Below are positions 359-34,641 of a stretch of DNA of 39,622 nucleotides, piece after piece. The stretch is taken from the NCBI GenBank assembly GCA_021813505.1, contig JAKAKI010000091.1:1-39622 (forward strand), written 5' to 3'. Both the position numbers and the translations under genes were made by a program. The notes below the pieces were generated by a model, which was given only the letters and a program-made list of their open reading frames with translations, searched no databases and was not told the DNA's origin. Every line of letters starts with the position of its first letter. The first letter of the stretch is position 1. This stretch comes from a bacterium (GTDB taxonomy: Bacteria > Zixibacteria > MSB-5A5 > WJJR01).

Positions 359-1303
359 CTAATGCCAATTGGCAGGGTCAACAACTGATGACGAGTGACC
401 CTTTGACGGAGTCAGTTCTGGTCCACCCCAGCCCCGGCTACTCCGCCGCGCCGGTAATTCAGTGCATGGATTGCAAGGCGATGGGCCGCCCGAGAGAGTA
501 GCGGCAATCAGATAGATTACGTCAAAAACGTCGACCGCACCGTCACAATTGACATCACCGCGTTGAGCCGTGCACGTTTCGTCCCACGGCGAGGGACCGC
601 CACTAAAGGCCTCGTAGATCGAACCGAGGACGTCGAAGATATCGATATATTCATTGGCGTCGTAATCCCCCTGCAGGGGACAATTGCATGGCACAATCGT
701 CACCGTGCCTCTCTGGAACACGGGGGTCACTGCCTGCACCGCCGGCCAATTCACCACAAACGTCAGGTGATTGTTCGGGATCATGCAGGCGGTGTCGATT
801 TCAAAGGTGCCCAGTGTCTCGGTGACGTTGACGAAGAGCCACATCGATGGGGTCGTATCAGTCCCGGGCAACAGGTCCCCGCCATTCGACCGCGCCCGGA
901 CAAACAAAGCTCCTTCCGGCGAGGATGACACCGTGCGGCTCCTCCCAATGCTGTCAAAGACCACGTTGCCGTAACCCTCCCCCGCACTGCCCGAGCTGCA
1001 AGTTGTATCCTTGACACCGTGCTGCACGCCGACAATCGCGCCGGCCAGGACATTACTACTCAACCTCCCGCCATACGACATCGACATCGACGTGATGAAT
1101 GATCCCGGCGTTACGGCACGGATTTCCAGCGGGACGACCAGGCCGCACAAAGCGGCACTATTCGTCACGCGAATCCCGACGGCAGCGCCACTGCCTGCAG
1201 GGATGGCGCGCGATTCGACAACAACAGAGTTCTCGGCCCACGTGCTTCCGGTTGTCGCAAGTACGATGAGCATCGCAAGTGTTAATTCGAATATAGCTTT
1301 CAC
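359..1303 (-). CDS. Secreted cohesin-like protein with two dockerin-like repeats
   Basis: A protein of 314 residues begins at a GTG at 1303, preceded by a good GGAGAAGGGAG ribosome site. Longer upstream starts lack both that site and the signal peptide. Residues 1-22 are a Sec signal peptide ending near STWA. Residues 25 to about 205 form a beta-rich domain that resembles cohesin-type sandwiches (VVVESRAIPAG, GIRVTN). Residues 212-280 carry two calcium-binding dockerin-like repeats, GDYDANEYIDIFDV and GDVNCDGAVDVFDV, each followed by an FSGGPSP or LSGGPSP linker. A low-complexity tail of about 34 residues follows. It lies downstream of the subtilase and is paralogous to the gene at the left edge. 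Such tails in FCB bacteria are taken to serve surface attachment or protein assembly; no enzymatic motif is visible. Confidence 0.8.
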   Translation of the reverse strand: MKAIFELTLAMLIVLATTGSTWAENSVVVESRAIPAGSGAAVGIRVTNSAALCGLVVPLEIRAVTPGSFITSMSMSYGGRLSSNVLAGAIVGVQHGVKDTTCSSGSAGEGYGNVVFDSIGRSRTVSSSPEGALFVRARSNGGDLLPGTDTTPSMWLFVNVTETLGTFEIDTACMIPNNHLTFVVNWPAVQAVTPVFQRGTVTIVPCNCPLQGDYDANEYIDIFDVLGSIYEAFSGGPSPWDETCTAQRGDVNCDGAVDVFDVIYLIAATLSGGPSPCNPCTELPARRSSRGWGGPELTPSKGHSSSVVDPANWH

Positions 1304-1385
1304 GTAATGCTCCCTTCTCCAGTGGCTGCCGGGCACTGTGGCACAGCGGCCTGTCCAGGCAGCTTCCGAACTTGCTTGCCATGCG

Positions 1386-3305
1386 TCAGTAGCTGTAACA
1401 GGGCGGAATCGCCCGGCCGTACGAAGCTGCCCCCAGCGTCCGGAGGTAGTCAATGATGTCGGCGTCGTAGTCACCGTCGGTGTCGGCAACGCGCCTATCC
1501 AAGGCCGGCGGATCACCATGACGGAAGCAATACTCCTCCATCTTGCGCACGTCTACGGTGTCAATCCGCGCATTGTTGTCAACGTCGCCGCGAATGATCG
1601 AGAGCAGTGCGCGGTAGGCGTTGGCGCGACCGTAGCCCGTCGCATCATCAAACCCAGCCGGAGGAAGGTCTATCGCGGAATTTCTGATGATATTTCCTAC
1701 GATCAGGTGACATGTGTCCTGCCATCCCTGAGCTGTGTAGAAATCGGGACGACGAGCAAGGATCAATGCGGCGATGCCTGCGATTTGTGGGCAGGCGGCA
1801 GACGTGCCTCCGAAAGTGGCCCTGTAGTTCAGGTTTTGTGGAGGCTCCAAAGAAAAGCACTCGAGTGTTCTGTCAGGGTTCACACCGCGTTCGCCCATTT
1901 GATCCATTGTCCACATGTCGCCGCAGTTCAACACATCTCCAGCGGGTGCAACCACGTCCAATTCGGGACCGGCCCCGCTGTATCCCCAAGCTGAATCATG
2001 TCCTCTCACCTCGGCGCCGGCTGCAAGAACATTCGGATCGGTCGCCAGGATGTTAACCGGCCCGGGCTTTTGACAGTCCGGAGCCCCCCTCTTGTAATTG
2101 CCTGCCCCGAAGACGACAACACAGCTGTACGGTCTGTAAGGCAAGTTAGGTCGCGTGACCTCATTGATTGCCAGCATTACCTCTGGATAAGGGCCCAGCG
2201 CCACGCCACCGCATGTCATTCCGAGCCACCAGCTGTTCGAGATGACTTTCGCGCCTTGAGCTGCGGCAAAAAGGATCGCTTGCACTAGGTAATAGCCTGG
2301 CGCTATGTCGCTTTTCCTATCATCGTAGAAGATCTTCACTGGTATGATTTGGCAACTTCCGAAAACTCCGGCCATCCCGACCCCATTGTGCGAGGCCGCA
2401 AGAATCCCAGCGCAACTCATTCCGTGGGCATTGTAGTAGCCCGGTCGTGCGTCAAAATCGATCAGCTGGGGATCGCCCGGCTGCACTGGGGCGTAGGGCC
2501 CGGCAGCGTCAAACCCCGGCTCGATCCTACGCCACGGCAGGTCCAAGGCCGTGTCAATTCCGTCGTCAAGAATTGCGACCTTGAGGCTCGAATCGACGAG
2601 CGGGACCATCCAGGCCGAGTCAGCATCGATGTCAACATTGCGGTATGGGTAATCCCGGTCCTTCAGCCAGTAGGCGCGATAGTAATCGGGGTCCGATGGA
2701 TCCGAGAGACGCTCCCCTTTGCTGTAGACCTCCGAGCCCGCCCAGAGCGAACCGGTCAGGAAGCACATTCTATTGGCGTGGTCAAGTGGGCCTGACTTGA
2801 TGCTGTCCTGCAAGGCGCAGAGCCACCAGCCGTGCGACCAGCTCATGGAATCCACGAAGACCAACCCATTTGCCGTTGCCAACGAGTCCATGTTCCCAGC
2901 GGATAGGCCGGGGTCGAACCGAACTGTAATCAGGTCTGTGACGCGCAATTCCCCGGAATCCGCCTGGCGGATATAGACAGGTATGGCTCGATTAACTGTC
3001 GCGTCAGAAAGGAGGTCCGAAGCAGTAGCGGAGTAGTTGCACTGCTGATGCATCCCGTAGATCCAACATCCGCGCCCAATATATTCCGGCGAGATCGATT
3101 GGTCGAGGCACGGGTGCCTATCGAAGAACGCGCCTGAAGAGAGTGACGTCACGGTGGTGTCGAACTGGATTGTGATGTGCTGGGGCGAAGGGACGACAAC
3201 GATTGAAGAATCCCGATTAATCTGCCAGAGCTCGCACTCGGCATGTGGAGTGAATAGCAAGAAAACACTCACTATTATCAGCGGAAAACCGCACCTCGCG
3301 ATCAT
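1386..3305 (-). CDS. Secreted subtilisin-like (S8) serine peptidase with dockerin-like tail
   Basis: The chosen start is ATG at 3305, preceded by GAGAGGGAGAAC and opening a signal peptide (MIARCGFPLIIVSVFLLF); this gives 639 residues. The catalytic triad is readable: Asp247 in AILDDGID, His294 in NAHGMSCAG, Ser502 in GGTSAACP, with the oxyanion Asn403 in FGAGN. The N-terminal 240 residues form a propeptide-like region containing FDRHPCLD, which recurs in the truncated paralogue at 4542-4952. The C-terminus (about 572-625) has two degenerate dockerin-like motifs (GDVDNNARIDTVDV and ADTDGDYDADIIDY). It sits 47 bp downstream of a beta-propeller lipoprotein on the same strand, probably in one transcript. 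It should be an extracellular or surface endopeptidase; the substrate cannot be read from the sequence. Confidence 0.92.
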   Translation of the reverse strand: MIARCGFPLIIVSVFLLFTPHAECELWQINRDSSIVVVPSPQHITIQFDTTVTSLSSGAFFDRHPCLDQSISPEYIGRGCWIYGMHQQCNYSATASDLLSDATVNRAIPVYIRQADSGELRVTDLITVRFDPGLSAGNMDSLATANGLVFVDSMSWSHGWWLCALQDSIKSGPLDHANRMCFLTGSLWAGSEVYSKGERLSDPSDPDYYRAYWLKDRDYPYRNVDIDADSAWMVPLVDSSLKVAILDDGIDTALDLPWRRIEPGFDAAGPYAPVQPGDPQLIDFDARPGYYNAHGMSCAGILAASHNGVGMAGVFGSCQIIPVKIFYDDRKSDIAPGYYLVQAILFAAAQGAKVISNSWWLGMTCGGVALGPYPEVMLAINEVTRPNLPYRPYSCVVVFGAGNYKRGAPDCQKPGPVNILATDPNVLAAGAEVRGHDSAWGYSGAGPELDVVAPAGDVLNCGDMWTMDQMGERGVNPDRTLECFSLEPPQNLNYRATFGGTSAACPQIAGIAALILARRPDFYTAQGWQDTCHLIVGNIIRNSAIDLPPAGFDDATGYGRANAYRALLSIIRGDVDNNARIDTVDVRKMEEYCFRHGDPPALDRRVADTDGDYDADIIDYLRTLGAASYGRAIPPCYSY

Positions 3306-3352
3306 TGTGTTCTCCCTCTCATGTTGTTCTCTTTGGCGGCTGCACCACCATG

Positions 3353-4486
3353 TCAGCGGGGCTGCGGGCCATAGCCCATTGCCCCGATCCAAGCGAACCC
3401 GGTGTCGGGCCAGACGACCTCCTCGACTTGGAGAGCGGTCAGGTCGATAACATGCACCCACCCGGGGGTTGCCGACCGGGGGGCCACGATCAGCCTCCTG
3501 CTGTCAGCGGTAAAACAGATTTGTGAAAATAGGTCCCACGAGTTGACCCCGAAGTCAGTCGGTCGGAATCGCTTGAGATGGCTGAGGTTGCGGAGGCCGA
3601 TAATATCGATGCCAGGCTCAGGCGCTTCAGGGTGGCCGATGTAGCTGGGATCGCTTATAGCCGCGAATGCACCATCCGGGCTGATTGCAATCTCTCCATT
3701 GCACCCCTCACGGTCGAATTGAAGCAGTGTCTCCCCGTTAGTAACGTCGCCTACCAGCACACAGCACCCACTCAATGAGGGACCTGCGACGATGACGCGC
3801 CGATTATCCGATAGTAGCATGACTTGGTAGGCCCCGACCTGTTCGCCAGATTGCATGTGTGGAACATAGCTCCCTGTCAATTCGCCCGTCTGAAGGTCGA
3901 GGACCCGGATAAGACTTGGGCCTTCGAGCCCACCCGGATGAAAACCGACTGCGATCCTCATGCCGGCTCCTGGCCCATCGCGCCATCGCAGTGAGTCATT
4001 TGACCTACGCTCATCTGATAGGGTGGTGGCACTCAGCGTTCCTCCATAGAAATAGCCGTTCCCCCAAAGGATGACTTCGCCATTCTTCAGCATTCCCAGC
4101 TTCTGGGATCCCCCGCCCGGACGTGCTGCGCTCTGTTGTCTGGTTTGACTATTGACTTTCAAGAGGGGATTCGCATCGAGAGGAGATGACCTCGACACAT
4201 AGAGCCACTGACCATCGGGCGACACAAGCATGTCCAGGCTGCTGCCCAGACCCGGGATAGAATCGCGGACAGTGAGGCTGTCGGAGTCGAGAATGTACAT
4301 CTGATCGGTCTGCGTGTTCCCGATGTAGATATTGTATCTAACGGGCTTGGGCTTGCTGGACTTACTGCAGCCGGTCAGCAATAGACTCACGCCGACCGCG
4401 GCAATGCAGCCCAGCATGGCGACACGACATACGATCTCGATGCAATCCCACGACACACACCAGATATTCGACTTGTGGCTTGCCAT
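3353..4486 (-). CDS. Beta-propeller lipoprotein (YVTN-like repeats), copy A
   Basis: A 377-residue protein starts at ATG 4486 behind an AAAGAGGAG ribosome site. A lipobox LLTGC with Cys40 follows a hydrophobic segment, so it is predicted to be a lipid-anchored envelope protein. The N-terminal 23 residues before the hydrophobic core are unusually long for a lipoprotein signal; Met24 is an alternative start. The mature part contains repeated WD/YVTN-type blades (YIGNTQTDQMYILD, VSPDGQWLYVS, ISPDGAFAAISD, FTADSRRLIVAP), suggesting a seven-bladed propeller for protein binding. A paralogue lies at 5005-6126, and the two share a nearly identical upstream leader. It precedes the subtilase in a probable operon. 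No catalytic residues were recognised. Confidence 0.85.
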   Translation of the reverse strand: MASHKSNIWCVSWDCIEIVCRVAMLGCIAAVGVSLLLTGCSKSSKPKPVRYNIYIGNTQTDQMYILDSDSLTVRDSIPGLGSSLDMLVSPDGQWLYVSRSSPLDANPLLKVNSQTRQQSAARPGGGSQKLGMLKNGEVILWGNGYFYGGTLSATTLSDERRSNDSLRWRDGPGAGMRIAVGFHPGGLEGPSLIRVLDLQTGELTGSYVPHMQSGEQVGAYQVMLLSDNRRVIVAGPSLSGCCVLVGDVTNGETLLQFDREGCNGEIAISPDGAFAAISDPSYIGHPEAPEPGIDIIGLRNLSHLKRFRPTDFGVNSWDLFSQICFTADSRRLIVAPRSATPGWVHVIDLTALQVEEVVWPDTGFAWIGAMGYGPQPR

Positions 4487-4664
4487 ACGACTCCTCTTTC
4501 ACGCTTAAGGTTATCGCGCTAGCTGAATCAGGCTCTTGAGGTTACATTCTGGGTGCCTCCTTTCTACTACGAGGCCCGCCCAGGCGCTCCGGGATTGCTT
4601 GCGTGCTTTCGATGGAGCGCCGGGCGGTTTCCGTTTGTCTCTTTGTCTTACCGTGATTGAACGT
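4487..4664 (-). repeat. Duplicated leader, copy A
   Basis: These 178 nt upstream of the propeller lipoprotein copy A match 6127-6304 with only three visible differences (near 4512, 4522 and 4540). The element contains a strong imperfect hairpin: CCGCCCGGCGCTCC on the minus strand pairs with GGAGCGCCTGGGCGG, separated by about 23 nt. It also contains an AGGAGGCACC-like stretch. It would be the 5' untranslated leader of the lipoprotein gene. The right boundary at 4664/4665 is also the breakpoint where the truncated subtilase reading frame begins. Confidence 0.85.
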
Positions 4665-4952
4665 TGTTACTCTTATGCCAATGCCGGGCACGTGGGGCGC
4701 GCGTTCGATCGGCCCGCATTGCTTCATGTCCTCCGGCGAAACGGCTGGATCGAGACAAGGATGGCGGTCAAACATGGTGCCTGACATGATCTGCGTAACG
4801 GTCGAATCGGCTTGCACGGCAATCCGTTCTTGAGACGGCTGGATCGCAACCGTTGAATCCTTTGTGGGATGATAGATCTCCGCGTGAGGCTTCGAAGTCC
4901 CTGAGATTAGGAGCAAGAATGTTGCGAAAACGAGTATGGTTCTTGTATGCAT
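4542..4952 (-). pseudogene. Truncated subtilase-family N-terminus (remnant)
   Basis: ATG at 4952 follows GGAGGAATCC and opens a signal peptide (MHTRTILVFATFLLLISG). About 95 residues follow that are homologous to the N-terminal region of the subtilase at 1386-3305. The shared elements are a Val-rich stretch with TVTQIMSGTMFDRHPCLD and SPEDM, against TVTSLSSGAFFDRHPCLD and SPEYI. After about residue 96 the homology stops at the border of the duplicated leader, and the frame runs through leader DNA to a stop at 4542 (136 residues in total). No Asp/His/Ser triad is present. It is best read as a protease copy truncated when the lipoprotein-leader unit duplicated. A secreted propeptide-like inhibitor is possible but unsupported. 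Confidence 0.75.
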
Positions 4953-5004
4953 GGATTCCTCCATTGCCGCACCCACGGGTACGGCTGAATACTGCGTACC
5001 GAGA

Positions 5005-6126
5005 TCATTGCTTTGGACGCAGACCAGTTCCTATTGCCCCGGTCAGCGGGACATCACCCGGTAACCAGATCGCCTTCTCTTCCTGGAGGGTCACCAGGTT
5101 GATCACATAGAACGGACTGCCTTTGCCGGGAGGCGGCGCCAGGACGGCGCGTTTCCCGTCGGCCAGGAACTGAATCTGCGCGTTGTAGACCCAGTCGCTG
5201 AAGTCGTCCTCGTTGAATCGCTTCAAGTGCGTGTTTGTGGTCAGGTCAAACACATCAGTCGTTAGAGGAGGGAACTCCGGACGACTGATATTGCTGGGAT
5301 CAGTCACAATCGCATAGTGGCCGTCGTCGCTGATAGCAACCCTTCCCCCAGGTGCGGAGAGTCGCTGTTGCAGCAAAGTGCTGTCGGTAATGACATCCCC
5401 GATGACAAACCACACCGCTTTCGAGGCAGATGGACCCATCACCAAGACACGTTTGCCATCGGGATGGAGTGATACCTGGTATGTCGAGATGGTCACTCCC
5501 GATTGTAGCCTGGGTATGTAATTGCCATAAACCTCACCCGTCTTCAAATCGAGAACGCGGACACGGTGGTCATTCCCCGGTGCAACGACTGCGATCTTGG
5601 ATCCGGATTGTGGGCCATCCCGCCAGTAGAGCGAGTCATCGATTTGGCTCGTGACGGTCAGAGTGGTTGGGTCGATGATCTCCTCGTAGAAGGTGGGGTT
5701 GCCTCTAAGCAGCAATCGTCCATCATCTAGCCCCCTGATTACGATTGGCCCGTTGCTCGGGAGAATCCCTGCGACCTGCTTGCTCGATGCATCGAGCTTG
5801 ACGAGCACGTTTCCGCCACGATTGTACTTTCCCTCGACGAACAGCCACCGCCCGTCAGGCGATACGACCATGCTGTAGCTGTTTCCAAGCCCCGGGATCG
5901 AATCGATGAGCGTGAGGCTGTCCGCGTCGTAGACATACATTTGATCGGTGTTGTTGCAGCCGACATAGATGTTGTACTTGAGGGGCTTCGGCTTGTCGGG
6001 CTTACTGCAGCCGATCAGGAATAGGCTGACCCCGATCGCGGCGATGCAGCCCAGCATGGTGACACGACCTACGGCCCCGACCCAATCCCACGACACACAC
6101 CAGATATTCGACTTGTGGCTTGTCAT
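5005..6126 (-). CDS. Beta-propeller lipoprotein (YVTN-like repeats), copy B
   Basis: A 373-residue paralogue of the protein at 3353-4486, starting at ATG 6126 with the same AAAGAGGAG site. The first 14 residues differ by one position from copy A, and the lipobox FLIGC places Cys40 as the lipidated residue. Blade motifs include YVGCNNTDQMYVYD, VSPDGRWLFVEG, LHPDGKRVLVMG, ISDDGHYAIVTD and FLADGKRAVLAP. The bodies of the two copies have diverged clearly while the upstream leaders are almost identical. It heads the minus-strand cluster and is followed 52 bp later by the truncated subtilase. The predicted role is an envelope-anchored protein-binding propeller of unknown partner. Confidence 0.85.
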   Translation of the reverse strand: MTSHKSNIWCVSWDWVGAVGRVTMLGCIAAIGVSLFLIGCSKPDKPKPLKYNIYVGCNNTDQMYVYDADSLTLIDSIPGLGNSYSMVVSPDGRWLFVEGKYNRGGNVLVKLDASSKQVAGILPSNGPIVIRGLDDGRLLLRGNPTFYEEIIDPTTLTVTSQIDDSLYWRDGPQSGSKIAVVAPGNDHRVRVLDLKTGEVYGNYIPRLQSGVTISTYQVSLHPDGKRVLVMGPSASKAVWFVIGDVITDSTLLQQRLSAPGGRVAISDDGHYAIVTDPSNISRPEFPPLTTDVFDLTTNTHLKRFNEDDFSDWVYNAQIQFLADGKRAVLAPPPGKGSPFYVINLVTLQEEKAIWLPGDVPLTGAIGTGLRPKQ

Positions 6127-20331: not shown

Positions 20332-20537
20332 TCAGCCGACCCCGTGTCGCACTTGCCCACGTTATCGACAAGCAATACTGCGGCGCCATCCGAGGTCAAT
20401 CATCATTTGTTCAGCTAAAATCCGTTCAATTTTGCCCCGATTTGCCGCGTAGAAGCAGAAGACCCGGCCTGGATGAGACCGGCGGGTGTTATATTGGCGA
20501 CGATTGATGGGAGTGATGGGATTAAATGGGAGGAGTG

Positions 20538-21452
20538 ATGCAACACACACGAAAGTTGATTGGTGCTGCCGCTTTAATGGCCGCGCTGGCATTGCTGGCG
20601 CCACCGTCTCAGGCGGCGGACGAACCCGAGGTCAAATGGGACCATGTATTCTCCGGCCATGAGATGTGGCTGAGCTCGCTCGATTCGGGTCTGGCGGTAT
20701 CGGCGCGCGAAGGCCGTCCGATGCTGGTGGATTTCTACAGCCGCCACTGAGGGGGATGCCGGACTCTGGCAGAGTCCACGTGGGCCGACCCCAAGTTTCA
20801 GGCGTGGGCCAAAGAAAAGAAGTTCGTTCTCGTGAAAGTCCACACGCTCGACCAACCCGAAAAACGCAAGGAATACAAGATTGCCGGCCTGCCGACGGTC
20901 ATCACGGCCAAGCCCGGCGGTGAGGAAATCGACCGCACATTGGGATACATCAAGACCGCGAACTTCATTACCACCGTCGACGATTATCAGAAGGGGATTG
21001 GCACGCTGGGGTCCATGCTGGCCGAGGAGAAATCCAAGTCCAAGGACCCCGAGTTCCTTTACAAATTGGGCAAGAAGCTGTTCACGCACAGCCGCTGGGA
21101 CGACGCCGATCAGCGGTATGCCGCTGTCGTTGCGGTTGATCCGGATAATCAGTCGGGGAATGCCGACGACGCCCAGTTGGGACGCGCCAATGCCGCCGGA
21201 AAGAAGGAAGATTACGCCGGCGCGGTGGCGCAATGCCGCGAAATCGGCAAGCGCTGGCCCAAGAGCGATCTCGCTCCCGATGCCCTCAGCTATATGGGCT
21301 GGTACGCTACTCAGGGCGGCATGACCGAGGAAGCGATCGCCGCGTTCACCGACTATCTGAACCGGTGGCCCGAGGGCGAAGACGCCGAGTTCGCCAAAGA
21401 AGAACTGGCGAAGCTGAAGAATCCGGAAAAGGCGAAGACGAAGACGAATTGA
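20538..21452 (+). CDS. Putative selenoprotein: exported thioredoxin-like protein with U-G-G-C active site and TPR tail
   Basis: ATG 20538 follows GGAGGAGTG and opens a signal peptide (LIGAAALMAALALLAPPSQA). The frame meets TGA at 20748-20750, then stays open to 21452. If the TGA is read as selenocysteine the product has 304 residues with Sec71-Gly-Gly-Cys74 at the thioredoxin active site (LVDFYSRH-U-GGCRTL), plus the expected cis-proline Pro119 in IAGLPTV. The TlpA-like protein at 22883-23494 has the all-cysteine version CGGC. A perfect 7-bp hairpin begins 10 nt after the TGA. Residues about 160-290 form TPR-like helices (FLYKLGKKLFTHSRWDDADQRY, APDALSYMGWYATQGG). It should be a periplasmic redox protein. 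Alternatives are a nonsense mutation or a sequencing error at a Cys codon, but no other lesion is visible. Confidence 0.8.
20748..20792 (+). promoter_or_regulatory. In-frame UGA codon with candidate bacterial SECIS hairpin
   Basis: UGA occupies 20748-20750. GGACTCT (20761-20767), loop GGC (20768-20770) and AGAGTCC (20771-20777) form a perfect stem-loop. The loop begins exactly 17 nt after the UGA and has G at its first two positions, agreeing with the known bacterial SECIS design (for example E. coli fdhF). Outer pairings are possible: GCC 20758-20760 with GGC 20783-20785, and GGGG from 20751 with CCCC 20789-20792. Confidence 0.7.
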
Positions 21453-21458
21453 CAAGAG

Positions 21459-21485
21459 GTAGGGTGCGTTATTAACGCACCCTAC
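21459..21485. terminator. Bidirectional hairpin between convergent genes
   Basis: GTAGGGTGCGTTA (21459-21471) and TAACGCACCCTAC (21473-21485) form a perfect 13-bp palindrome around one base. It lies 7 bp after the thioredoxin-like gene and overlaps the stop of the convergent CMD-like gene. No T-tract follows on either side, so it may be a REP-type palindrome acting as an mRNA end rather than a classical Rho-independent terminator. Confidence 0.6.
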
Positions 21486-21835
21486 GACGCGGAGCTTCGG
21501 GCCTCGGCGAGTGTCCCGGCGGCGCGGCGCAGATGCGGGATCGTGATCGATCCACCCACCACCAGCGCCACTGAGAATATCTCATCGAATTCCGCATCGG
21601 TAACGCCTCGTTCAGCGCACTGCAGGATGTGGTAGGTGATGCAGTCATCGCAGCGCAGGACAATCGACGCCGCCAGTCCCAGCATCTCTTTTGTCTTTGC
21701 CGGCAGGGCGCCATCGAGATAGACGCCGTTGTCGACATTGAAAAAGCGCTGGATGTACTTGTGCTGCGATTTCAGCAGGACTTCGTTGAGCGCGAGGCGC
21801 TCGGCTTTGAATTCGGCGATGGTTTTGCGGGTCAT
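21482..21835 (-). CDS. Carboxymuconolactone decarboxylase / AhpD-like protein
   Basis: A 117-residue protein of the CMD superfamily. The redox motif Cys62-Asp-Asp-Cys65 with His69 (LRCDDCITYHILQC) is the AhpD-type active site that reduces peroxidase partners by thiol-disulfide exchange. The helix IFSVALVVGGSITIPHLRRA follows, as in the family. The start at 21835 is preceded by AAGAAGGAGCC. The frame ends inside the hairpin between the convergent genes. A peroxide- or disulfide-reducing role is inferred; the partner is unknown. It is convergent with the thioredoxin-like gene. Confidence 0.88.
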   Translation of the reverse strand: MTRKTIAEFKAERLALNEVLLKSQHKYIQRFFNVDNGVYLDGALPAKTKEMLGLAASIVLRCDDCITYHILQCAERGVTDAEFDEIFSVALVVGGSITIPHLRRAAGTLAEARSSAS

Positions 21836-22089
21836 TCGTGCAGGCTCCTTCTTGATGATTCACTGACTCTCGGGCGGAACTCAAACGCAAACAAGTAATT
21901 GCCGGAAACCGGTATGTCAAACGTCCCGTTGCAGTTCGGGCCGGATGCCTGAAGATCTTTCCGGCGAAATGGCCGGCGGGACGATTCATAGGCAATCGAA
22001 CCAAAGACATATTCCCCTTACAGTGAGCAAGGGGCTGCCTGAAACTCTTTTCTCGGGGGAGTGGAAAAGACGGCAAGAACAAAAAGTCT

Positions 22090-22119
22090 TTGCGCGGGCA
22101 GCTGAATTGTACGTATAAT
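22090..22119 (+). promoter_or_regulatory. Candidate sigma-70 promoter for the ArsR-rhodanese operon
   Basis: A perfect TATAAT lies at 22114-22119, 18 nt after a weak TTGCGC (22090-22095). The predicted start would fall near 22126, about 25 nt before the ArsR ATG at 22152. The AT-rich content here contrasts with the surrounding GC-rich DNA. Confidence 0.55.
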
Positions 22120-22134
22120 CAATTGATCGATTGA
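22119..22134. promoter_or_regulatory. Candidate ArsR operator palindrome
   Basis: TCAATTGATCGATTGA is palindromic at 14 of 16 positions and sits on the edge of the -10 box and the predicted transcription start. AT-rich dyads in this position are typical autoregulatory sites of ArsR/SmtB repressors, so the downstream ArsR-rhodanese protein is the natural candidate to bind it. Confidence 0.5.
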
Positions 22135-22151
22135 ATAATTGAGTATCAGCC

Positions 22152-22832
22152 ATGTCGACAGCCCGCGAAGTCAAAGACAGACTCTACTCCCAGTTTGCGC
22201 AGTTGGGGCACGCCCTCGCCAGCCCCAAGCGGCTGGAGCTTCTCGATCTGCTTTGCCAGAGCGAAAAAACCGTGGAAACCCTCGCCGGGCACTCAAGCAT
22301 GTCAGTGGCCAACACCTCTCGCCACCTGGGGGTGCTCCGTGGTGCGAGATTGGTCGACCGTCGCCAGGAGGGCGTGTTTGTCTATTATCGCCTGGCCGGG
22401 AGCGAGGTTTGCGATTTCTTCCGGGGTCTTCGCCGGCTCGCGGAAAGCCGCATGGCCGAAGTCGACCGCATCATTTCCGACTACTTCGAACCCTCAACGC
22501 GCCTGCAGCCCATCGATCGGAAGACGTTGCTCAAGCGGGCGCGGGTGGGCGAAGTCGTCATTCTTGACGTTCGGCCGGAAGACGAATTCAGTGCGGGGCA
22601 CCTGCCATTGGCCGTGTCGGTTCCACTCTCCCAGTTGCTGAAACGGCTTAGGGAGTTCTCACCTGACAAGGAGATCGTGGCGTACTGCCGCGGTCCCTAC
22701 TGCGTTCTCGCGCAGGAAGCTGTGTCTCTGCTGCGGTCCAAGGGCTTCAAGGCGTACAGCCTCTCCGACGGGATCGCTGAATGGAAGGACGCAGGGCTGC
22801 CCGTGGAGCCAATGCCCGCAACCCGAAAGTAG
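22152..22832 (+). CDS. ArsR-family transcriptional regulator fused to a rhodanese domain
   Basis: A 226-residue regulator. Residues 1-100 are an ArsR winged helix (LASPKRLELLDLLCQSEKTVETLA, then recognition helix SVANTSRHLGVLRGARLV and wing RRQEGVFVYYRL). Residues about 120-220 are a rhodanese domain with LDVRPEDEFSAGHLPLAV and catalytic loop C179-RGPY-C184. The usual ArsR ELCVCDL metal site is absent; Cys35 and Cys87 in the DNA-binding part could form a thiol switch (inference). The rhodanese suggests sensing or handling of sulfane sulfur or persulfide. It heads an operon of at least nine co-directional genes and probably represses it through the palindrome at 22119. Confidence 0.92.
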   Translation: MSTAREVKDRLYSQFAQLGHALASPKRLELLDLLCQSEKTVETLAGHSSMSVANTSRHLGVLRGARLVDRRQEGVFVYYRLAGSEVCDFFRGLRRLAESRMAEVDRIISDYFEPSTRLQPIDRKTLLKRARVGEVVILDVRPEDEFSAGHLPLAVSVPLSQLLKRLREFSPDKEIVAYCRGPYCVLAQEAVSLLRSKGFKAYSLSDGIAEWKDAGLPVEPMPATRK

Positions 22833-22882
22833 TGCCTGATGGCCGCGATGACCTTGCCCGTTTCACTTAAGAGGAGAGCCAA

Positions 22883-23494
22883 ATGAAGAAGCCCCCACGG
22901 ATGTCCCTCGTCGTCTTGATGCTCTGGACATACATGTCCGTACCTTTCGGTGAAGCCAGGGTGCGAGCGGGCACACAGCCATCGCATGCGGAAGAACGGC
23001 GCCCCAGTGGGCGGAGTCTTGAAGTCGGCGACCGCGCGCCCGAATTCACCCTGCCGAGCTTGGGCGGGAAGACGGACACACTGTCTTCTCACAAGGATGA
23101 GACAGTTCTCCTGTGGTTCACCAATCTTTGCGGCGGCTGCCAAGCAGCCCTTCCAGAAGTGCAAAACCTGGGTCGACGGTACGCGGCCAAGGGTGTATCG
23201 GTATTGGCCGTCAGCCTACTTGGTGGAGATACGACGACCGTCTCCAGCATCGCGCGAAAGCAACGCGTGACGTTCCCCATGCTGATTGACCCCGAAGGCA
23301 GGGTGTACGAACAGTACGGCGGTGTGAAGGTGCCGCCGGGCACCTGTCCGGCCAATCCGCAGTTCTTCATCATCGACAATGGATTGATTGCCTATGCCGC
23401 GCATTTTCCAGGTGCCCCAATTGATGAGATTCGTAAGGAGGTTGACAGTCTGATCGGGGCGCGTAAACCTCATCCGCCACGAGATCCCAATTGA
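22883..23494 (+). CDS. Exported TlpA/peroxiredoxin-like thiol-disulfide oxidoreductase
   Basis: A 203-residue protein with an AGGAGAG ribosome site and an N-terminal signal or anchor (MSLVVLMLWTYMSVPF). The thioredoxin fold begins at GDRAPEFTLPSLGGK; the active site is Cys83-Gly-Gly-Cys86 in LLWFTNLCGGCQAALPEV. SVLAVSLLGGD and CPANPQFFIID follow, the latter with the cis-proline. It acts in the periplasm, reducing or transferring thiols, perhaps for cytochrome maturation or sulfur handling given its neighbours. It is the second gene of the ArsR-rhodanese operon. Confidence 0.88.
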   Translation: MKKPPRMSLVVLMLWTYMSVPFGEARVRAGTQPSHAEERRPSGRSLEVGDRAPEFTLPSLGGKTDTLSSHKDETVLLWFTNLCGGCQAALPEVQNLGRRYAAKGVSVLAVSLLGGDTTTVSSIARKQRVTFPMLIDPEGRVYEQYGGVKVPPGTCPANPQFFIIDNGLIAYAAHFPGAPIDEIRKEVDSLIGARKPHPPRDPN

Positions 23495-23559
23495 GAAGAC
23501 CGATGAGGGTCCTTGATTCACGAGTGTAATTCGATCTCAATCGATTGCTGGGAGGGTAT

Positions 23560-24174
23560 ATGACTGCGAAAGAACTGTGCGCCGTGGGCGTCGCCGTTTC
23601 CGTGCTGGGCACGATAACTGCAGCATCCGCGTATCCGCCCGCCGTGGGAATTCTCGGCGCATCCAAGTCGTGCAATTCCTGTCACGTTAATAACGGGCCC
23701 TGGACCGACGAATCGAAAACAATCGTGGACATCATCGACAAGGGAACTGGCAGGTCTCTCCGGCAGAAAGACGGCAGTTTCCTGATTGAAGCGAAGCGCT
23801 TCGAGTCGAAGACTGTGATCACCATAATCGGCCGGGCCAAAGAAGACACTTTATCAGGTCCGTACCGGAACGCATGGCTCTACATCGATCCGGCCCAGAT
23901 CGGCACCACATCGTTGTCGAAGTTTCCGCCGGGATGGTCAGTGGACCTGCCTATGGCGTGCCGTCTCGTCGGCGACAAGTCACACGTCTATGAAGGCGCA
24001 AGAGTGACCGTTCTGCCCATGACGGTCCAGCCGCTCGACGGTGCTGAAGCGGCGACCCTCGACATCCATGTGATGCTCACGTCCGGTGAGTCTGTCAAGG
24101 GTGACGCAACGAAGGGGATGCTGTCGAATTATCTCGTCCGCACCGTACGGCTAACGGTTATCGACGCGAAATGA
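23560..24174 (+). CDS. Exported protein with one CxxCH haem-binding motif
   Basis: ATG 23560 follows GGGAGG at good spacing and gives 204 residues. A signal peptide (LCAVGVAVSVLGTITAASA) is followed almost at once by Cys38-Asn-Ser-Cys41-His42, a canonical covalent haem c attachment motif. The rest is beta-rich and does not resemble a classical cytochrome c fold: DKGTGRSLRQKDGSFLIEA, FESKTVITIIGRAKED, KFPPGWSVDLP, and a conserved-looking TLDIHVMLTSGE. I do not recognise the family. It overlaps the DsrE-like gene by 4 nt (ATGA), so translation is coupled. Electron transfer with the adjacent thiol and sulfur proteins is inferred. Confidence 0.75.
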   Translation: MTAKELCAVGVAVSVLGTITAASAYPPAVGILGASKSCNSCHVNNGPWTDESKTIVDIIDKGTGRSLRQKDGSFLIEAKRFESKTVITIIGRAKEDTLSGPYRNAWLYIDPAQIGTTSLSKFPPGWSVDLPMACRLVGDKSHVYEGARVTVLPMTVQPLDGAEAATLDIHVMLTSGESVKGDATKGMLSNYLVRTVRLTVIDAK

Positions 24175-24521
24175 AGTACCTATTTATCCTAAACGACCCC
24201 GCATATGGGACCGAGCGGTCCTACAACGGCCTTCGGCTGGCGCTCGCATTGCGAAAGCAAGTGGACGCTCAGCTTCGAGTCTTCTTGATGGCGGATGCGG
24301 TCGGGTGTGGGAAATTGGGACAGAAAACGCCAGACGGATACTACAATTTGGAACGCATGATTAAAGGTCTGGTTGCTGCCAATGCCCCCGTTGCGGCGTG
24401 CGGTACCTGCGCCGACGCCCGCGGGATATCCGAAAACGAGCTCATCGAGGGTGTCCATCGCGGTTCGATGGAAGAGCTCACCGAGTGGACGATTTGGGCG
24501 GATAAAGTCATTGTCTTCTGA
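24171..24521 (+). CDS. DsrE-family sulfur-relay-like protein
   Basis: A 116-residue cytoplasmic protein of the DsrE/YchN fold. It opens with the typical strand KYLFILNDPAYGTERSYNGLR, has a helix LALALRK, and carries cysteines at 46 (DAVGCGK) and in the conserved CGTCADARG segment (Cys77, Cys80). DsrE-like proteins carry persulfide sulfur in sulfur oxidation and tRNA thiolation pathways. The position between a CxxCH protein and a membrane protein, in an operon with a rhodanese regulator, supports sulfane-sulfur handling. Confidence 0.88.
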   Translation: MKYLFILNDPAYGTERSYNGLRLALALRKQVDAQLRVFLMADAVGCGKLGQKTPDGYYNLERMIKGLVAANAPVAACGTCADARGISENELIEGVHRGSMEELTEWTIWADKVIVF

Positions 24522-32610: not shown

Positions 32611-34641
32611 ATGTCTAACCGGTCACGTCAATTGGCCATTCGCCTCTTGCGCGGCGTTGTTCTCGCCGGGCTGGTCGCGTTTGTGGCGGCGCCGGTCTCA
32701 TCGAAACGCGCTCCGTCGGTTCCAGCGCGGACCAGTATGGCCGCTGCGGCGCTTCCCCGTCCGGCGCGCGCTCCCCTCGCCACCGCCGTGCAGGCGGTCA
32801 ATGCTCTTCAAAGACAAGCTTTTCGCCCGTGGAATGTCCGTTGGAGCGGCGAGACCGGCCTGCCGCGCATGATGATGGCCGGGCAGTCTCGTGCATACAC
32901 AGGAGGGGTGGCCGAAGCCGCCGCCTCGTTCCTCGACGATCATCGAACACTATTTGCCTTGGACACTGGTGCCGGCCGGATGATCTCGGCAGTGCGGCCG
33001 CTTGATCAGCAACAACTACCGGAGGGCACCAAAGTCACGTTCGAGCAGGCGGTTGGCCGATTTGCGGTCGTCGATGCGCAGATCGGGGTGATTGTCGATG
33101 GGAGTGGCTCGGTCATCCACATCAGCTCCAGCGCCCGGCAGATTCCCGCCGTGGACACAGTCCCCGCATTGTCCGGCACGACCGCTGTTGCTGTGGCCGC
33201 TGCCGCGGTTGGCAAACCTCGCATTACCGGATCCGATCCGGCGCCACGCCTGGTGATTTACCCGTCTGATCCGCCGCGTCTTGCTTATGAAATCCGTCTG
33301 ACGTTCGACGCTGGTTATGGCGAGCCGTGGCGGTTTGTGGTCGATGCACACGATGGCGCGGTTCTCCTGCAGCGCCGAATGGTCTTGGACGCGGATACTT
33401 CGTTTGTGTTCGATCCCAATCCGGTGGTGACGCTGAACGATACGACGCTTCTGGACCATAACGACAGTGACAGTGCCGTGCCGCTGGCGGGATACCGCAC
33501 AGTCGTACTGCAACATCTCGATCCGGCGGTGGGCGGGGTGTACTCGCTTGAGGGATCGTACGCGGTGATGCAGAACATGGAGGCGCCGAATAATACGCCG
33601 CCGACCTCGCCGGACAGCAGCTTTCTGTTTCTCCGCAAGAACAACGACTTCGAAGAAGTGATGGTGTACTACACCATCACGAAGAGCCAATTGTACATCC
33701 AGTCACTCGGGTTCACCAATGCCGACAACCGCCGGCACCAGCTTGACGCGCACGGCTACGGCGGCGCCGACAATTCGCACTATGTTCAAAGCGTCGTGGG
33801 TGCGGGGTATATCGCCTATGGCGATGGCGGTGTCGATGATGCCGAGGACGCCGACATCATCCTGCACGAGTACGGGCATTCGATCCAGGACAACTCCTCG
33901 CACGGGATCTATTTCGGGATCGCCAACCACGGGTACGGCGACGAGACCGGGGCGATGGGTGAGGGATTCGGCGACTACTGGGGGGCATCGGCCGGGTATG
34001 ATTCGTCGGTGGCCCACGGATTCCCGGCGGCGTATGTCGGCGAGTGGGATGCGAAGGGGTACACCGCGGCCGGTGAGCCATACCTGCGCGTGGTCAACTC
34101 CGGCAAGGTCTACCCGGCGGATATGTCCAACGAGGTGCACGCCGATGGCGAGATCTGGTCGGCGGCGTTGTGGGATTTGTTTGGGTCGGTGGGCCGGACA
34201 GTCGCCGACCGGCTGGTGCTTTACTCGCACTTCCTGGTGCCGACCCCTCCCGACTTTGCTGATGGCGCCAACGCGCTTCTGGCGGCCGATGCGGTTCTGT
34301 ATCCGGCCGCGGCCAAATCCGGCGCCGTGGTCTACGGAATTCACTACGATCAAATCTGCAGCGCGATGTCGGCGCACGGAATTCTCAATTGCCCGCCCAT
34401 CTGCGACTGCTCGCACACCGGCGATCCGAACGATGACGGTGTGATCGACCTGTTCGATATCATCCTGACCATCGACGAAGTCTTCTCAGGCGGCCCCCAG
34501 GCCCCCAAAGACCCGTACTGCCCCCACCTCTCGCGCAGCGACTACAACTGCGACAACTCGATCGACGTCTTCGACGTCGTTCACGCGATCGAGTACGTCT
34601 TCAGCGGGGGGCCGGGGGCGTGTGATCTGTGTGGGGGGTAG
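32611..34641 (+). CDS. Secreted M36-like (fungalysin/thermolysin-type) metallopeptidase with dockerin-like repeats
   Basis: A 676-residue secreted zinc protease. The signal peptide is within the first 30 residues (LLRGVVLAGLVAFVAAPVSS). An FTP/PepSY-type propeptide follows (about 60-260; FVVDAHDGAVLLQRRMV). The catalytic domain has HEYGH (419-423) with Glu451 in GEGFGDYW as third zinc ligand. The C-terminus (about 603-676) has two dockerin-like repeats, GDPNDDGVIDLFDI and SDYNCDNSIDVFDV, each followed by VFSGGP. These are the same type as in the cohesin-like protein at 359-1303. It is probably an extracellular protease attached or assembled through this tail. Confidence 0.92.
   Translation: MSNRSRQLAIRLLRGVVLAGLVAFVAAPVSSKRAPSVPARTSMAAAALPRPARAPLATAVQAVNALQRQAFRPWNVRWSGETGLPRMMMAGQSRAYTGGVAEAAASFLDDHRTLFALDTGAGRMISAVRPLDQQQLPEGTKVTFEQAVGRFAVVDAQIGVIVDGSGSVIHISSSARQIPAVDTVPALSGTTAVAVAAAAVGKPRITGSDPAPRLVIYPSDPPRLAYEIRLTFDAGYGEPWRFVVDAHDGAVLLQRRMVLDADTSFVFDPNPVVTLNDTTLLDHNDSDSAVPLAGYRTVVLQHLDPAVGGVYSLEGSYAVMQNMEAPNNTPPTSPDSSFLFLRKNNDFEEVMVYYTITKSQLYIQSLGFTNADNRRHQLDAHGYGGADNSHYVQSVVGAGYIAYGDGGVDDAEDADIILHEYGHSIQDNSSHGIYFGIANHGYGDETGAMGEGFGDYWGASAGYDSSVAHGFPAAYVGEWDAKGYTAAGEPYLRVVNSGKVYPADMSNEVHADGEIWSAALWDLFGSVGRTVADRLVLYSHFLVPTPPDFADGANALLAADAVLYPAAAKSGAVVYGIHYDQICSAMSAHGILNCPPICDCSHTGDPNDDGVIDLFDIILTIDEVFSGGPQAPKDPYCPHLSRSDYNCDNSIDVFDVVHAIEYVFSGGPGACDLCGG

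Follow-up and report, generated by a model that had tools for sequence, protein, structure and literature searches.

A probable selenoprotein with thioredoxin and TPR domains in Zixibacteria and related lineages

The reading frame and its product

The window (the whole stretch of DNA analysed here, 39,622 nucleotides from a Zixibacteria genome) carries on its forward strand a frame that, when TGA is translated as a residue, gives a protein of 304 aa with a single internal TGA at codon 71. The features recognised along this gene are as follows.

20538..21452 (+), predicted selenoprotein CDS, 304 aa with Sec71 (translation with TGA read through, TGA-bearing orthologues, dN/dS)
20538..20615 (+), signal peptide, residues 1-26, MQHTRKLIGAAALMAALALLAPPSQA (read directly from the sequence)
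20667..20978 (+), thioredoxin-fold domain, residues ~44-147, with cis-Pro P119 (Pfam, AlphaFold, Foldseek)
20748..20750 (+), UGA codon for the predicted Sec71, which opens the redox motif U-G-G-C (homologue column)
20751..20792 (+), bSECIS-type hairpin (fold energy, codon identity, enrichment in Sec vs non-Sec genes)
21006..21419 (+), C-terminal TPR solenoid, residues ~157-294 (Pfam TPR_6, predicted helices, likeness to 2xev)

The coordinates that the initial annotation had given for the frame and for the TGA at 20748 were exact when translated. The long open continuation that it described after the TGA is also there, its figure of 234 codons having to be read as 233 sense codons plus the stop, which is itself a TGA (21450-21452). 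An in-frame ATG at 20526 is an alternative start. The residues around the putative selenocysteine (LVDFYSRH-U-GGC-RTL) contain the redox couple U71-G-G-C74, and this thioredoxin context, together with the cis-Pro motif IAGLPTV, is present as had been described. The protein thus shows the defining traits of the thioredoxin superfamily, i.e., the fold, a UxxC at the first helix and the cis-Pro loop. Among the Pfam models, Thioredoxin_7 was matched above its cut-off at residues 44-109 (3.6e-13), and Thioredoxin, Thioredoxin_2 and TPR_6 exceeded theirs as well.

The AlphaFold model (pLDDT 93.2) consists of a thioredoxin fold followed by a TPR solenoid (helices 157-294), with an N-terminal helix (4-19) of low confidence, as expected for a signal peptide. 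Many homologues have lipobox-like N-termini instead. Because of the signal peptide and of these lipobox-like N-termini the cell envelope is the most probable site of action, and we infer that the protein is exported to the periplasm.

Conservation of the TGA and exchange with cysteine

Standard gene calling yields only an ORF of 206 aa (20832-21452, starting at GTG 20832) from which the active site is missing; gene callers halve such Sec genes and lose the catalytic part. Taken at face value, this result would favor a true stop at 20748, the locus being then a pseudogene, the product of a sequencing error, or a TPR protein translated separately from GTG 20832. The distribution of the TGA argues against all of these. 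In the taxonomic family of the window, the six orthologues, one in each of six genomes, have exactly one TGA, always at the same column, over identities of 44-95%. At the level of the phylum, a homologue with E <= 1e-30 was found in 38 of 132 genomes. The alignment of 41 Zixibacteria homologues has TGA in 20 and Cys or Ser (two Ser) in the other 21 at the column of residue 71, and every TGA in it falls at this one column. In a scan of named genomes, the 79 readable sites at this column were TGA (18), TGC (44), TGT (15) or Ser (2), and not one further in-frame stop was found in 18,499 aligned codons of these 79 homologues. The column is therefore occupied by TGA or Cys, and rarely by Ser, as would be expected from the claim that the TGA sits at the first redox position, and random stops elsewhere are absent across the aligned codons. 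A TGA kept at this single column throughout a phylum goes beyond chance.

Selection points in the same direction. Between the genome of the window and a genome of the same genus (G005), dN/dS was 0.20 for the part before the TGA and 0.045 for the part following it, so that the stretch after the apparent stop is the more constrained one. The UGA is thus in frame, is flanked on either side by conserved coding sequence under strong purifying selection, and is aligned to Cys in homologues, and a break at this point would cut the thioredoxin fold in two. A true stop is accordingly very improbable, and pseudogene and sequencing error were rejected given the conserved TGA and the constraint on both sides.

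On these alignments the gene belongs to a predicted family that is widespread and has both Sec and Cys members. The motifs of the Sec forms were UGGC, UGSC, UGAC, UKWC, USWC, UTWC, UTYC, UKYC and UPWC, and those of the non-Sec forms included CKWC, CTWC and CRWC, among others. The homologues from named genomes came from Candidatus Zixiibacteriota, Neomarinimicrobiota, Ignavibacteria and others, with the Sec forms in Zixibacteria, Neomarinimicrobiota and MAGs labelled, for example, "uncultured bacterium" or "FCB group bacterium". One Sec form is labelled Gammaproteobacteria and has a sequence nearly equal to an FCB one, possibly coming from a misbinned contig. Two homologues of family f18, L042 and L045 (L109, L099), carry Ser in place of the first redox Cys or Sec (SAYS, SPWC), a feature reminiscent of the SxxC in Escherichia coli CnoX.

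The exchange between Sec and Cys has been repeated. On a maximum-likelihood tree of the homologues, for which the Sec residue had been masked, the simplest history of the Sec/non-Sec label takes six changes, of which well-supported branches force at least four. One Cys form (L032) and one Sec form (L036) are sisters with full branch support, and in the genome of the window a Cys paralogue (CKWC) exists alongside the Sec gene. Such repeated switches in close relatives (pairs 78% identical) offer a natural system for studying why Sec persists.

The hairpin and the selenocysteine machinery

Immediately after the UGA there is a core stem-loop, 5'-GGACTCT-GGC-AGAGTCC-3' (20761-20777), with a perfect 7-bp stem (20761-20767 / 20771-20777) and the loop GGC at 20768-20770. 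Folding of the 42-nt structure (20751-20792) gave -20.2 kcal/mol and confirmed the earlier description of a bSECIS-like hairpin whose loop begins with G and lies 17 nt from the UGA. The published bSECIS rules are a loop of 3-9 nt, a G within its first two positions, a distance of 16-37 nt from the UGA and an MFE <= -7.5 (PMC13188914), and the hairpin of the window agrees with all of them. In five orthologues, conserved residues were encoded by identical codons in 5 of 8 cases within the hairpin stretch vs 7 of 55 elsewhere (p=0.005). Against synonymous-codon shuffling the hairpin of the window alone was marginal (p ~0.06-0.08). Over the family, a bSECIS-compatible hairpin (E <= -7.5) was found in 27 of 33 Sec genes vs 12 of 71 non-Sec genes, and the median p against synonymous shuffling was 0.07 for the former vs 0.86 for the latter, values that come from related sequences and are not independent. 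Three of the 33 Sec homologues (L037, L051 and L068) had no hairpin under the strict rules. The Rfam model SECIS_1 (RF00031) gave no match in the whole genome, and none of 14 controls was matched either.

The genome of the window (3.89 Mb, 97% complete) has the four genes needed, selA, selB, selC and selD. The first two (490 and 324 bits, respectively) and tRNA-Sec (68 bits) are side by side on one contig (C61), and selD (L082, G000:C11:7297-8220) has one in-frame TGA at GG-U-AAK, the known Sec site of SelD. SelD was itself a selenoprotein in the eight genomes tested. Over the phylum tRNA-Sec was found in 105 of 132 genomes; of the 20 genomes that carry a TGA homologue, 18 have it. The exceptions are G104, with only a broken piece of selB at a contig edge, and G003 (L020, L066), called 100% complete, where selA, selB and tRNA-Sec were all absent above cut-off. 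Since both are draft assemblies and both keep a Sec-type SelD, missing contigs are the simplest reading of these gaps. The strongest hairpin of the family is that of G003.

A conserved gene with an in-frame TGA that is read through could also be produced by a genome-wide reassignment of UGA (e.g., to Trp, Gly or Cys), the residue then not being Sec. The gene, however, uses TGA as its own terminator, there is a single TGA per gene and only at the Cys site, none was seen at Trp or Gly columns in the family, and the genome encodes the full Sec machinery with a Sec-type SelD. A code change was rejected on the terminator, the single TGA per gene and the machinery, and we regard it as the least probable of all the readings considered. 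Selenocysteine remains the reading that we prefer: we put at about 0.95 the probability that this gene encodes a selenoprotein with UGA 20748 read as Sec, and the data point strongly to insertion at residue 71.

Relation to known proteins and predicted function

The 2026 catalogue of prokaryotic selenoproteins lists 119 families, among them several thioredoxin-like ones with UxxC and one Trx7/PDZ with CxxU (PMC13188914). A thioredoxin-TPR family is absent from its 119 entries, in agreement with the earlier statement that this form was undescribed. The catalogued UxxC thioredoxin and thiol:disulfide interchange selenoproteins (PF00085, PF13098; PMC13188914 Table 1) likewise have Sec as the N-terminal residue of UxxC and an in-ORF bSECIS, but the window protein matches best as Thioredoxin_7, is predicted to be exported and has a C-terminal TPR, and no row of the catalogue is alike. 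No NCBIfam selenoprotein model reached its cut-off with the window protein or with three Marinimicrobia members. The best match to these models among 36 aligned members was TsoB (E 5.6e-21), a hit about as strong as those of the Marinimicrobia members, which scored 60-70 bits where the cut-off is 805. The C-terminal domain of TsoB (NF045694), with DsbD gamma, is the nearest thioredoxin domain both by profile (42 bits for the window protein) and by fold; these are, however, domains of membrane fusion proteins without TPR. The Trx7/PDZ (seleno)protein NF041199 shares with the window protein a Thioredoxin_7 domain within a multidomain selenoprotein, but has CxxU and PDZ instead of UxxC and TPR (24 bits, cut-off 300).

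In Foldseek, the first domain was matched by DsbD-gamma and thioredoxins, and the TPR domain superposed at 1.7 A (TM 0.88 by target length) on that of YbgF/CpoB (2xev, TIGR02795), a protein without thioredoxin domain and with a Tol-Pal rather than redox function. We found no thioredoxin-TPR selenoprotein of Zixibacteria or Marinimicrobia in the literature searched; neither that literature nor the catalogue is exhaustive, so an earlier mention as plain "thioredoxin" is possible. By architecture and lineage this would be a new selenoprotein family, with decoding that appears to be of the ordinary bacterial Sec type, and it would add to the catalogue a family from lineages known solely through environmental genomes.

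The signal peptide suggests a selenol/thiol oxidoreductase of the cell envelope, and we propose the following scheme, its redox steps being deduced from the predicted fold and location. SelB with Sec-tRNA(Sec) would be recruited by the hairpin just 3' of the UGA and Sec placed at residue 71. The product would then be exported via its signal peptide and fold as a thioredoxin domain (Sec71-x-x-Cys74) plus a TPR solenoid. Sec71 would attack a client disulfide, another oxidised thiol or a peroxide, the TPR domain presumably holding or recruiting the client, and Cys74 would resolve the mixed selenosulfide. The resulting selenenylsulfide would be reduced again, the most likely donor being the DsbD-type membrane reductase encoded in the genome, and the protein would work in the reductase direction. 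The chances that the protein acts as a disulfide reductase seem to us about even.

Two other roles for the same selenoprotein have to be weighed. One is that of a holdase similar to the chaperedoxin CnoX, shielding oxidised envelope proteins rather than reducing disulfides in general. CnoX unites thioredoxin and TPR (PMC8129009), and CnoX/YbbN (3qou, 3qdn) was the top Foldseek match by E-value and the best over the full-length architecture. The superposition of the full chains was nevertheless poor (TM 0.3, rmsd 22 A), reflecting an unlike placement of the domains; CnoX is cytoplasmic and passes its clients to GroEL, while the window protein is predicted to be exported; and CnoX/YbbN has SxxC (as in E. 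coli) or CxxC, against UxxC here. No Sec form of CnoX/YbbN was found in the literature searched. We consider the holdase a serious alternative, though less probable than not. The other role is a Sec-dependent envelope reductase of the peroxide or methionine-sulfoxide type. Selenoproteins that reduce peroxides typically attack with a selenol, but the fold is like that of thioredoxin and DsbD-gamma, and there is no peroxiredoxin or Msr domain, which makes this role rather unlikely. Returning to the selenoprotein as a whole, a more speculative proposal would be that of the first recognised thioredoxin-TPR selenoprotein family, an envelope "seleno-chaperedoxin" of Zixibacteria and Marinimicrobia, both in the FCB group, with repeated Sec/Cys switching, in which the TPR would hold oxidised envelope proteins and the selenol repair them; we judge it possible, with the odds against it. 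Whatever its exact role, the predicted selenoprotein would carry the thioredoxin-TPR layout of CnoX over to the envelope and to selenium chemistry.

The gene neighbours of the Sec gene are not conserved outside the genus, so that no pathway can be drawn from gene context, and a plasmid search by protein gave no match. Beside the Sec gene, at 21482-24521, there are Cys-type relatives of known selenoprotein families: a CMD/AhpD-like gene, an ArsR-rhodanese fusion, a TlpA-like protein (22883-23494), in which the CGGC motif mentioned in the initial annotation is present, and a DsrE-like protein. From this cluster, only the CMD gene still adjoins the Sec gene in G005.

Elsewhere in the window, two adjacent and clearly similar exported lipoprotein-like genes (3353-4486 and 5005-6126, both on the minus strand) share an M[AT]SHKSNIWCVSWD... 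start and beta-propeller-like repeats and represent a tandem duplication. A short gene at 4542-4976 (-) is related to the N-terminal part of the S8-like peptidase (1386-3461, -), with ...DRHPCLD...SPE... in both, and seems to be a truncated copy that arose in the same duplication. Two exported proteins far apart in the window (359-1519, minus strand, and 32611-34641, plus strand) have dockerin-like C-terminal repeats, GDxNxDGxVDxFDVxxxIxxxxSGGP.
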